From NCBI RefSeq assembly GCF_014252455.1, contig NZ_CP060245.1:198190-262189 (forward strand): a stretch of DNA of 64,000 nt. The letters run 5' to 3'. Positions 49,708 through 53,664 of the stretch are shown here, piece by piece. Source of the DNA: Blattabacterium cuenoti. Lineage in GTDB: Bacteria; Bacteroidota; Bacteroidia; Flavobacteriales; Blattabacteriaceae. The position numbers were made by a program, and so were the translations under genes. How positions within the stretch are numbered: the first letter of the stretch is position 1; every line of letters begins with the position of its first letter. The notes beneath the pieces are model-generated. The model saw nothing but the letters and a program-made list of their open reading frames with translations. It was not told where the DNA came from and searched no databases.

Positions 49708-51216
49708 ATGAAGAGAATAGTTTTTTATATTTTACTTAGTAGTATGATGAGTTCAGTTATAACTATTGCTGCATACAAAAAATATAATAAAGAAGAATCT
49801 CTATTATTTCCACCATATAATAATAATGAAAAAAATAAATGGACTCCTTCTACTTCCTCATTAGTCAGTTCTGCTGGATTACCTGATTTTACTAGAGTAG
49901 TAGAAAAAACAATTCATGCGGTAGTAAATGTAAAAAATTATTCTAATAAATATCATAATAAATTAAATTTTGATCCATTTGATTTTTTCTTTGGATTCCC
50001 TGATGATTTTGGAGAAAAAGGAAAAATTCCTCAAAATAATAATGATCTTCCTGGACTTCATGGATCAGGTGTAATTATATCTCCAGATGGATATATAGTT
50101 ACTAATAATCATGTTATTAAAGATGCAGATAAAATAGAAATTACTCTTAATGATCAAAGAACATATAGAGCAAAATTAATAGGAACAGATACTAGTACAG
50201 ATATTGCATTATTAAAAATTAATGAAAAAAATTTACCATTTATTTATTTTTCTGATTCCAATAAAGTACAAGTAGGAGAATGGGTTTTAGCTATAGGAAA
50301 TCCTTTTGATTTAAATTCAACGGTTACTGCAGGTATTATTAGTGCTAAAAATAGAAATTTAGGAATATTAAGAGGGGAAACTCAAACAGCTATAGAATCT
50401 TTTTTTCAAACAGATGCAGCTGTAAATCCTGGAAATAGTGGTGGGGCTTTAGTAAATACAAATGGAGAATTAATTGGAATTAATACAGCTATTTCTTCAA
50501 ATTCTGGAAATTTTATAGGATATAGTTTTGCTGCTCCTTCCAATTTAGTAGGAAAAGTTGTTCAAGATATAAAAAAATATGGAACTGTACAACGTGCGTA
50601 TTTAGGAGTTAGAGGAATGGATCTTACTAAGGGAGAATATTTAAAATATTATAATAATGAAACACATCAAAATATAAAACCACAACAGGGTTTTTTAATT
50701 GGAGAAGTTTTTGAAAAAAGTGGTGCTTATGATGCAGGTATTAAAAAAGGAGATATTATTAAAAGTATAAATGGAAAATTAATTCAAAATGTAGCGGATT
50801 TATCTTTTATTGTAGGGACTAAACATCCAGGAGATAAAGTTACAGTTAATATTTTAAGAAATAAAAATATAAAAATTTTTAACGTTATTTTAAAAAATTC
50901 AAAAGGAAAAACAAAAATTATAAAAAAAGAAAAAATTACTATATCTGAATTATTAGGAGCTACTTTTGAATCTTTAGGAAAAAATATTAAAAAAAAATTT
51001 GGAATTGATTATGGAATTCTAATATTAGAAATAAGAACCGGGAGATTAAGTTATATAGGGATGGAAGAAGGTGATATTATTTTATCTATCAATGGTATAA
51101 AAATGAGGAGCCCTAATGATGTAGAATCTGTATTAAAAGGATATTCCGGAGATGTAACGATAAAATATTTTAAACCAAATGGTCAAATTTATATATCTGG
51201 ATTTGAAATGAATTAA
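49708..51216 (+). CDS. htrA: Do-family periplasmic serine protease (HtrA/DegP)
   Basis: Envelope quality-control protease. I chose ATG 49708 (MKRIVFYILL), giving 502 residues with an N-terminal hydrophobic signal/anchor; the 25 codons upstream do not look like a signal. The catalytic triad is His135 (TNNHVI), Asp165 (TDIALLK) and Ser244 (NPGNSGGAL). Two PDZ domains follow, about residues 285-390 (AYLGVRGMDL, AGIKKGDIIKSINGK) and 405-500 (IGMEEGDIILSINGIK). It is convergent with the permease gene, overlapping by 4 bases. Confidence 0.95.
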   Translation: MKRIVFYILLSSMMSSVITIAAYKKYNKEESLLFPPYNNNEKNKWTPSTSSLVSSAGLPDFTRVVEKTIHAVVNVKNYSNKYHNKLNFDPFDFFFGFPDDFGEKGKIPQNNNDLPGLHGSGVIISPDGYIVTNNHVIKDADKIEITLNDQRTYRAKLIGTDTSTDIALLKINEKNLPFIYFSDSNKVQVGEWVLAIGNPFDLNSTVTAGIISAKNRNLGILRGETQTAIESFFQTDAAVNPGNSGGALVNTNGELIGINTAISSNSGNFIGYSFAAPSNLVGKVVQDIKKYGTVQRAYLGVRGMDLTKGEYLKYYNNETHQNIKPQQGFLIGEVFEKSGAYDAGIKKGDIIKSINGKLIQNVADLSFIVGTKHPGDKVTVNILRNKNIKIFNVILKNSKGKTKIIKKEKITISELLGATFESLGKNIKKKFGIDYGILILEIRTGRLSYIGMEEGDIILSINGIKMRSPNDVESVLKGYSGDVTIKYFKPNGQIYISGFEMN

Positions 51217-52301
51217 TGATAATTTTTTTTACTCCAAAAAAAAATAGTAATGATTCCAAAAATAATATTTGGAAGCCAAATAGATAAATAAGAAGGAATA
51301 TAATTTTTTGTAGAATATATTTTTGATAATTCTATGCAAAAAATATATAAAAAAGATAAAAATAAACCAATTATTAAATGATTTTCTATTTTATTACTAT
51401 TTAATGATATGATAGATAATCCTAAAATAGTAAATATAAAAGTAGAAAAAGGAAAACTTGTTCTTTGATAATATTCATTTAAAAACATATTTATGTTTTT
51501 ATTTCCTCTTTTTTTTTCTATTTTAATAAATTTTTTTAATTCATTAATAGTCATTGTTTCCGCAATATATTCTTCTGGTAAAAGTTCTTTTGGTGTTATA
51601 TAAAAATTTTTTATAAGATAAAATCCTTTGGAAAAAATATCTTTATTTTTTTTTATATGTATTTCACTATAATTATGTAATATATATACATGATATTTTT
51701 TATTCCAAAAAATATTTTTAGCTTTAATTAGATATATTAGTTTTTTTCCATGAAATTTTTGATAGACACATTCTTTACCTATATTTTTTTTTCTTGAAAA
51801 ATTTTGAATAAATAAATATTCATTTTTTGAAATTTGAGCACTGATATTTTGATTATTTTCATATATTTTTTTATATTTTGAATTTAATAAATATTGATAA
51901 TGAAATTTATTTTTTTTTTTATTAGCTATAGGTAATAAATAATAATTAATCATTAAAGCTCCTATTCCTATAATAAAAGCTGAAATAAAATAAGGGTAGG
52001 TAATTCTTTTAAAACTAATTCCACTTACTAAAAGAGCTGTTATTTCTGAATTCTTATTCAATTGTGATGTAACAAAAATAATAGATAAAAAAACAGAAAT
52101 AGGAGAAAAAGTATTAGCTAACCATATTGCAAAATATGGATAATATCTTATTAAAGCTTCTTTGATAGATCCTTGATTATTTTCTAATCTATGTATCCGT
52201 TGAGAAAGGTCTATAACTACAGATAGTATTTGTAATCCTATGGTTATAAAAAAAAAAGTTACAATTATTTTAATAATAATATAACGATCAAGTATTTTCA
52301 T
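51213..52301 (-). CDS. LptF/LptG-family permease (YjgP/YjgQ)
   Basis: Membrane subunit of the lipopolysaccharide exporter family. Of 362 residues, three N-terminal helices (about 10-35, 55-80, 100-122) and three near the C terminus (about 280-355) flank a periplasmic beta-rich domain. LDRYIIIKIIVTFF, FSPISVFLSIIFVTSQL and the ELTALL-like region NSEITALLVSGISFKR are family traits. Whether this is LptF or LptG cannot be settled. In Bacteroidetes this gene commonly lies just downstream of tgt, and here the tgt remnant ends 24 bases upstream. Confidence 0.88.
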   Translation of the reverse strand: MKILDRYIIIKIIVTFFFITIGLQILSVVIDLSQRIHRLENNQGSIKEALIRYYPYFAIWLANTFSPISVFLSIIFVTSQLNKNSEITALLVSGISFKRITYPYFISAFIIGIGALMINYYLLPIANKKKNKFHYQYLLNSKYKKIYENNQNISAQISKNEYLFIQNFSRKKNIGKECVYQKFHGKKLIYLIKAKNIFWNKKYHVYILHNYSEIHIKKNKDIFSKGFYLIKNFYITPKELLPEEYIAETMTINELKKFIKIEKKRGNKNINMFLNEYYQRTSFPFSTFIFTILGLSIISLNSNKIENHLIIGLFLSFLYIFCIELSKIYSTKNYIPSYLSIWLPNIIFGIITIFFWSKKNYH

Positions 52302-52325
52302 TTATTTATAAACGTTTAAAATTTG

Positions 52326-52665
52326 TTAAGATAAATTTTCTCTATAAAGATATCTGATATAAGATTTATTATAAAATTGATCGACATAAGAATAACCTAA
52401 CTCATCTAAACAAACAAGATGAATCTTTTTCCCATTTATTTAATTCATCAATATGGTTATATTTTATCATTATAATAATTTTGTAAATTTTTCACTATCG
52501 GTTCAAATATATAGTTAGTCATAAACTAATGCAGTCCTCTTGTATGAGATAGGATTTTCATTACAGGACTAAAATATAAATTTCCAATAATAATCATCTT
52601 ATGTCCCATGATCAGTTTCTATAACTCCTACTCTTGCATACGGTTTTTATTAAATTAAATTTCAT
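52326..52665 (-). pseudogene. tgt: Decayed tgt (queuine/preQ1 tRNA-ribosyltransferase) remnant
   Basis: Only about 340 bp of an expected about 1.1 kb remain, in shifting frames. MKFNLIKT (52665-52642) matches the family N terminus. RVGVIETDHGT follows in another frame (52634-52602; cf. ARAGxxxTDHG), then IF-SPV after one more base shift (cf. IFMPV). Near the 3' end KWEKDSSC and then DELGYSYVDQFYNKSYIRYL, ending ENLS-stop at 52326, match the Tgt stretch with SYVD, YSKAY and RHL. The large middle with the catalytic Asp residues is deleted. Tgt inserts preQ1 into tRNA position 34. Comparisons are from memory of the family. Confidence 0.75.
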
Positions 52666-52746
52666 TTAATAAAAAATCTTACATAATAGGATATCAACGA
52701 AATTGACTAATTTCGCAAGAAAAAATAAATAATTTTTTTTCAAAAA

Positions 52747-53664
52747 ATGAATTTTATAGAACATTCAAAAATATATCATTATCCGGTCCTTTTAAAAGAA
52801 AGTATAGAAAATCTAATTACAGATAGAAATGGTATTTATGTTGATGTTACATTTGGTGGAGGAGGACATTCTTCTGCTATTTTAAAAAAATTAGAAAAAA
52901 AAGCTATTTTAATAGCTTTAGACCAAGATAAAGAATCCATTAAAAATAATTTAATAAAAGATAAGCGTTTTTATTTATTACATAAAAATTTTATACATAT
53001 AAGAAGTATTTTAAAAAAATATAATATAGAAAAAGTTTCTGGTATATTAGCTGATTTAGGTTTATCTTCTTATCAAATTTATAATTATAAAAGAGGTTTT
53101 TCTCATAAATTTAACTGTACTTTAGATATGAGAATGAATCAAAAAATTCCTATTTCTGCTTTACAAATTATTAATCAATATTCTAAAAAAAAATTATTTC
53201 ATATATTTTATAAATATGGCGAATTTAAAAATGCTATTCAAATTGCTGAAAAAATTTTAAAAAAAAGAGAAAAAAAACCTATCATTACTACATGGGATTT
53301 AATGAATATTTTTTTTTTAAAAAAACTTTCTTTTAAAAAAAAGAAAAAATTTTTATCTAGACTTTTTCAGTCTATACGAATAGAAGTTAATAATGAAATT
53401 AATAATTTAAAAAATTTTTTATTAGAATCTTCTAAAATTATCCTCCCAGGAGGTAGAATTGCTATTATTTCATATCATTCTATAGAAGATAGAATTACCA
53501 AATTTTTTTTTAAAAAAGGGGTATTTAAAAATCAAGAAATTCCCCGTTGTTATTCTATTCCATTTAAAATGATTCATAAAAAAGTTATTAAACCAACGAT
53601 TCAAGAAATTAAAATTAATCCAAAATCTAGAAGTGCTCGGTTAAGAATTGCGGAAAAATTATAA
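52747..53664 (+). CDS. rsmH: 16S rRNA (cytosine1402-N4)-methyltransferase
   Basis: RsmH (MraW) methylates C1402 in the decoding centre and is usually near the start of the dcw cluster. The 305 residues show YHYPVLLKESIENL, the SAM motif VDVTFGGGGHSSAIL, LIALDQDKE, GILADLGLSSYQIYN, RGFSHKFNCTLDMRM and IAIISYHSIEDR. mraZ, commonly the first gene of the cluster, is absent; the upstream gap holds the tgt remnant instead. Confidence 0.96.
   Translation: MNFIEHSKIYHYPVLLKESIENLITDRNGIYVDVTFGGGGHSSAILKKLEKKAILIALDQDKESIKNNLIKDKRFYLLHKNFIHIRSILKKYNIEKVSGILADLGLSSYQIYNYKRGFSHKFNCTLDMRMNQKIPISALQIINQYSKKKLFHIFYKYGEFKNAIQIAEKILKKREKKPIITTWDLMNIFFLKKLSFKKKKKFLSRLFQSIRIEVNNEINNLKNFLLESSKIILPGGRIAIISYHSIEDRITKFFFKKGVFKNQEIPRCYSIPFKMIHKKVIKPTIQEIKINPKSRSARLRIAEKL

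Follow-up and report, generated by a model that had tools for sequence, protein, structure and literature searches.

The gap of 445 bp between the start codon of an LptF/LptG-type permease gene (52301, minus strand) and the start of rsmH (52747, plus strand) raises the question of whether this short, A+T-rich stretch flanked by divergent genes is simply intergenic or is what remains of a gene and, if so, what became of the pathway to which that gene belonged. It lies in the 64-kb window (the whole stretch of Blattabacterium DNA that was analysed), which is part of a genome of 608,467 bp assembled as one contig, with no plasmid; this genome is referred to here as G000 and other Blattabacterium genomes as G006, G060 and so on. 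Both flanking genes are intact. The permease gene (51213–52301, minus strand, 362 aa) matches TIGR04408 (LptG) at 141 bits, which is under the cut-off of 240, and its placing is by synteny, the corresponding gene lying downstream of tgt in relatives. Its divergent neighbour rsmH (52747–53664, plus strand, 305 aa), encoding the 16S rRNA m4C1402 methyltransferase, scores 281 bits against TIGR00006 (cut-off 154). A search with this RsmH gave B. cuenoti EUPOLsin and ESCALves as the nearest named records, in keeping with the genus Blattabacterium. The original prediction was that the gap is not empty and retains, on the minus strand, the remains of tgt, the gene for the tRNA-guanine transglycosylase (Tgt) of the queuosine pathway, in which QueA acts after Tgt.

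The gap was searched with nhmmer using a nucleotide profile of tgt built on 29 intact copies from the same genus, and this bore the prediction out. Three blocks were found, 52665–52604 aligning with model positions 1–73 (E = 1.4e-7), 52594–52493 with 160–274 (E = 9.2e-7) and 52440–52321 with 880–1001 (E = 9.7e-17), all on the minus strand, collinear and in gene order; over the rest of the 64-kb window the next best match to the profile had an E-value of just 0.49. Listed from the strongest down, the blocks reach 53, 23 and 20 bits, while in 1000 dinucleotide shuffles the gap never exceeded 0 bits, so that by both E-values and shuffles the similarity to functional tgt is significant, and the profile match that had been proposed as a check was obtained. 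On translation of the minus strand of the gap MKFNLIKT, RVGVIETDHGT and (N)LYFSPV appear in three different frames, while DELGYSYVDQFYNKSYIRYL shares its frame with RVGVIETDHGT.

Pairwise alignment with intact tgt genes of the genus, together with the nhmmer and shuffle results, places the relic at 52306–52665 (minus strand), with about 30% of the gene left. The predicted extent of 52326–52665 was thus right at its upper end and too short at its lower end, as the relic reaches 52306 with the last codons and the stop. Codons 1–8 (MKFNLIKT, 52643–52665) match G030 tgt with 96% identity over 23 bp, and codons 14–24 (ARVGVIETDHG, 52606–52637; 75–86% identity) are put out of frame by an 11-bp deletion. 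The next block, at 52461–52594, covers about codons 55–103 (nhmmer E = 9.2e-7; 71% identity by blastn to G030 and G007), begins with ILGNTYHLYFQPG and ends in a degraded version of the DSGGFQ motif that carries the catalytic Asp. The N-terminal fragments in three frames had been correctly recognized, but the third, read as IF-SPV and equated with the IFMPV motif near codon 31, was misassigned: nhmmer and pairwise alignment replace it with the ILGNTYHLYFQPG (YFQPG) block from about codon 55. The near-C-terminal block, including DELGYSYVDQFYNKSYIRYL, is present as foreseen and corresponds to about codons 293–336 (KWEKDFSCLDE..YVD..YSKSYVRHL, 52320–52445; nhmmer E = 9.7e-17; 72–78% identity), with a 4-bp insertion and a 6-bp deletion. 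Finally, 52306–52317 (AAACGTTTATAA) is identical at 12 of 12 bases to G014 and G007 and corresponds to the 3′-terminal codons of tgt with their stop, a match that is weak when taken alone (E = 0.05) and is supported by its being in the right position. The block map and alignments therefore indicate that the relic keeps the gene's own start and stop. The amount deleted, put at about two thirds, is close to the roughly 70% found; however, there is no one missing middle but several separate deletions, of 11 bp, about 80–90 bp (codons ~25–54), ~570 bp (codons ~103–293) and ~110 bp near the 3′ end. With ~70% deleted and the rest frameshifted the open reading frame of tgt has gone, and the blocks lie in different frames with several stops, so that coding capacity has been lost.

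No functional copy was seen elsewhere. PF01702 found no match in the 608-kb genome, the same search having detected TGT in all 14 control genomes, so that the intact tgt without synteny to relatives that might have spoken against the prediction was looked for and is not visible. Parts of the analysed genomes are masked with N, and these masked stretches and the missing plasmid leave a small chance of a relocated tgt. The position of the relic is orthologous, its permease and rsmH neighbours being those of intact tgt in relatives. That the similarity is due to chance, or that the gap holds an unrelated regulatory or RNA element, as its composition, its shortness and its place between divergent genes might suggest, has a negligible probability given the E-values and order of the blocks, the shuffles, the synteny with intact tgt and an Rfam search of the gap in which no family came close to its threshold. 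We are virtually certain that the gap is a dead tgt gene.

The same locus was compared in the other 48 Blattabacterium genomes, and the relic does sit where the gene belongs, as had been proposed: uninterrupted tgt lies between the permease and rsmH in 39 of them. The single 1-nt deletion in a T-run that splits tgt of G009 (L069) was not counted as a loss, since the gene is otherwise intact and under normal constraint; it is possible that this is a slippage-rescued gene or an assembly error. G012 has a full-length tgt with many stops, and in the remaining seven genomes (G006, G060, G024, G016, G025, G063 and G028) no tgt match of the PF01702 type was found. Faint relics are present in G006 and G060, and at the locus in G024, G016, G025, G063 and G028 none could be detected. 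Stages of decay can thus be seen side by side: G012 still has the full length, though with stops, G006 and G060 have been reduced to short remnants, and in G024 and G028 nothing is detectable. Permease and rsmH matches lie 1189–1265 bp apart in intact genomes in which the permease was found, compared with 446 bp here, 557 bp in G006, 422 bp in G024 and 167 bp in G028. G006 and G060 have lesions in common (an identical change of GGA to the stop TAA, loss of the start codon and a large deletion) and inherited their dead tgt from a common ancestor. On a genus tree (FastTree, nine marker proteins, with some weak nodes) tgt has been lost independently at least seven times, a count that holds when nodes of support below 0.9 are collapsed. 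The loss in G000 that had been called recent is confirmed as a loss but not as recent, as it falls somewhere on that genome's own fairly long branch.

The assertion that in Bacteroidetes the gene upstream of this permease is commonly tgt also held among the outgroup genomes searched, tgt adjoining the permease in 19 of the 20 tgt-bearing genomes of the order. In these rsmH lies elsewhere, its junction with tgt being seen in the genus only, and tgt–permease is therefore the older pair. In relatives tgt and the permease gene are arranged head to tail with a few bases between them, and what is left of tgt in the gap (window positions 52302–52746) may for this reason persist as a leader and promoter for the permease mRNA. 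Independently of tgt, the LptG-like permease gene is frameshifted in G013 (L073) and G031 (L091) and was not found beside rsmH in G016, G019, G025, G033 and G036 (L076, L079, L085, L093 and L096). Tgt of the E. coli type carries a zinc-binding CxCxxC motif. At this position all intact tgt genes of the genus, and the Flavobacteriales outgroups in which the frame was read, have for example DENGTSYVDSTYSKAYVRHL, so that CxCxxC appears from the sequences to have been replaced in the genus and in those outgroups.

Taken alone, the loss of tgt is ordinary endosymbiont genome decay. In the G000 lineage Tgt was lost by frameshifts and several deletions, after which ~30% of the gene remained between permease and rsmH. 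No enzyme can be made from this relic, and G000 therefore presumably leaves G34 unmodified in the four GUN tRNAs. The order of the queuosine pathway and its salvage routes have been summarized (PMC11130926), and the remainder of the pathway was sought in the genomes of the genus. QueC gave weak partial PP-loop-like matches only, such as are also obtained with other PP-loop enzymes; for QueF and Vut_1/YhhQ there was no match above the cut-off, and QueG and QueH were found in none of the 49 genomes. Neither a complete queuosine pathway (QueC, QueF, QueG or QueH) nor the precursor transporter YhhQ/Vut_1 was therefore seen; among QueC, QueF, QueG, QueH, YhhQ, Tgt and QueA the visible pathway in the 49 genomes consists of Tgt and QueA, and neither a known source of preQ1 nor a known transporter for it is seen. 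As the genus has no convincing QueC or QueF, Tgt probably depended on imported precursor preQ1, and a failing supply of this precursor, or a weak benefit from the modification, would account for the repeated losses of tgt.

Loss of Tgt did not, however, release the rest of the pathway, as queA is retained under selection. In G000 queA lies outside the window (G000:C1:348745–349776; L101:8740–9780) and is intact, encoding a protein of 347 aa that matches the curated family TIGR00113 over its full length (residues 1–347; 390 bits, cut-off 267) and can be aligned from one end to the other with 1vky, a solved structure of QueA. What is missing is the visible tgt whose product would supply its substrate, preQ1-tRNA. 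Across the genus queA was found in 47 of 49 genomes. Its apparent absence from G008 and G028 was withdrawn since most of the expected region is N-masked in both, and thus no true absence is known; the shortened match in G025 was likewise put down to masking, and the exact tandem copies in four genomes (L105, L134, L136 and L139), with a 2001-bp period and unrelated breakpoints, are probably a data artefact. The gene is present in six independent tgt-less lineages, namely G000, G006/G060/G012, G024, G016, G063 and G025 (partly masked). Selection was assessed with a codon model in which branch lengths were fixed from a one-ratio fit. The overall omega for queA is 0.063, so that QueA is more constrained than Tgt across the genus (about 0.14), and omega in all tgt-defective lineages together (G009 included) is 0.059 as against 0.064 elsewhere, a non-significant difference. 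At the 191 QueA columns that are invariant in the 39 tgt-bearing genomes the tgt-less genomes differ at 1–4, compared with 0–4 in leave-one-out controls. The motif SVAAPTAGLHF (columns 180–188), also invariant in those 39, is changed in two independent tgt-less lineages (A182S in G006 and G025, L188F in G006 and G060, S180A in G025; queA loci of G006, G060 and G025, L140, L102 and L115; tgt loci, L066, L173 and L085), and R67K is found in G006 and G016. The changes are few, but they possibly point to altered activity.

We know of QueA solely as an enzyme acting on the product of Tgt. An intact QueA under purifying selection in genomes without tgt most likely acts there independently of Tgt, and that it has such a function in Blattabacterium, on another tRNA or small-molecule substrate or in a non-catalytic role, would explain its retention; we would put this at about an even chance. 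This reading requires that no bacterial-type Tgt comes from masked DNA, absent plasmids or the host. It is unlikely that Tgt has not been lost at all, an intact copy lying on a plasmid or in masked DNA or being supplied by the host, with QueA keeping its usual substrate. Retention and constraint of queA would be expected on such an account, there are masked stretches in the analysed genomes, and plasmids of about 4 kb are known from some Blattabacterium (PMC6039017). Nevertheless, the assemblies of G006, G060 and G012 include a second contig and yet have no functional tgt, and the same explanation must apply in six independent lineages. Furthermore, the eukaryotic tRNA-guanine transglycosylase inserts queuine itself, so that supply by the host would make QueA needless.

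The other alternative to a Tgt-independent role, that QueA has been useless since the death of tgt and has merely had too little time to decay, is disfavoured, and we regard it as very unlikely. It could draw on the G000 branch of queA, where omega is 0.085, slightly above the background, although this branch partly predates the loss, the difference from background is effectively none (2dlnL 0.8) and omega = 1 is rejected (2dlnL 41). Against it are the queA tips of G006 and G060, which, given the tgt lesions common to these genomes, evolved wholly without tgt: here omega is 0.030, and the test against omega = 1 rejects neutrality (2dlnL 80). In the pairwise comparison of G006 with G060 queA has a dN/dS of 0.051, the lowest among the genes compared. 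The other tgt-less tips give 0.042–0.070, and the same test does detect decay in the positive control, the dead tgt of G012 (0.52 versus 0.136, 2dlnL 29). As a pseudogene the relic is one more loss of tRNA modification in an insect symbiont, but a clean one with its stages of decay visible in relatives. A constrained QueA in tgt-less lineages is not explained by the textbook linear queuosine pathway, and with the upstream enzyme repeatedly lost and the downstream one strongly selected a second role for QueA is directly testable.

In the accessible papers that were searched, no report was found of tgt loss in Blattabacterium or of QueA being kept without Tgt. The closest counterpart of the relic is the intact Blattabacterium tgt (TGT, PF01702). 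The two agree in their sequence blocks and strand, in their location between the permease gene and rsmH and in their start and stop, and the relic differs in having about 70% deleted, frameshifts and no open reading frame. Both queA and tgt belong to a minimal translation apparatus proposed on the basis of symbiont genomes (PMC9035817). A Coxiella-like tick symbiont has tgt and queA pseudogenes (PMC4494066); as there, the tRNA-guanine transglycosylase gene decays in a reduced symbiont genome, but whereas queA decayed along with tgt in that organism it is intact and constrained in Blattabacterium. Uzinura diaspidicola, also a flavobacterial insect symbiont, has kept queA in a genome extremely reduced to 263 kb (PMC3971599, table 2), a likeness that concerns queA. 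In Blochmannia queA has undergone convergent erosion (PMC3017870), and here too a gene of the queuosine pathway has been lost repeatedly and independently among insect symbionts, with the difference that Blochmannia erodes queA while Blattabacterium erodes tgt and keeps queA.
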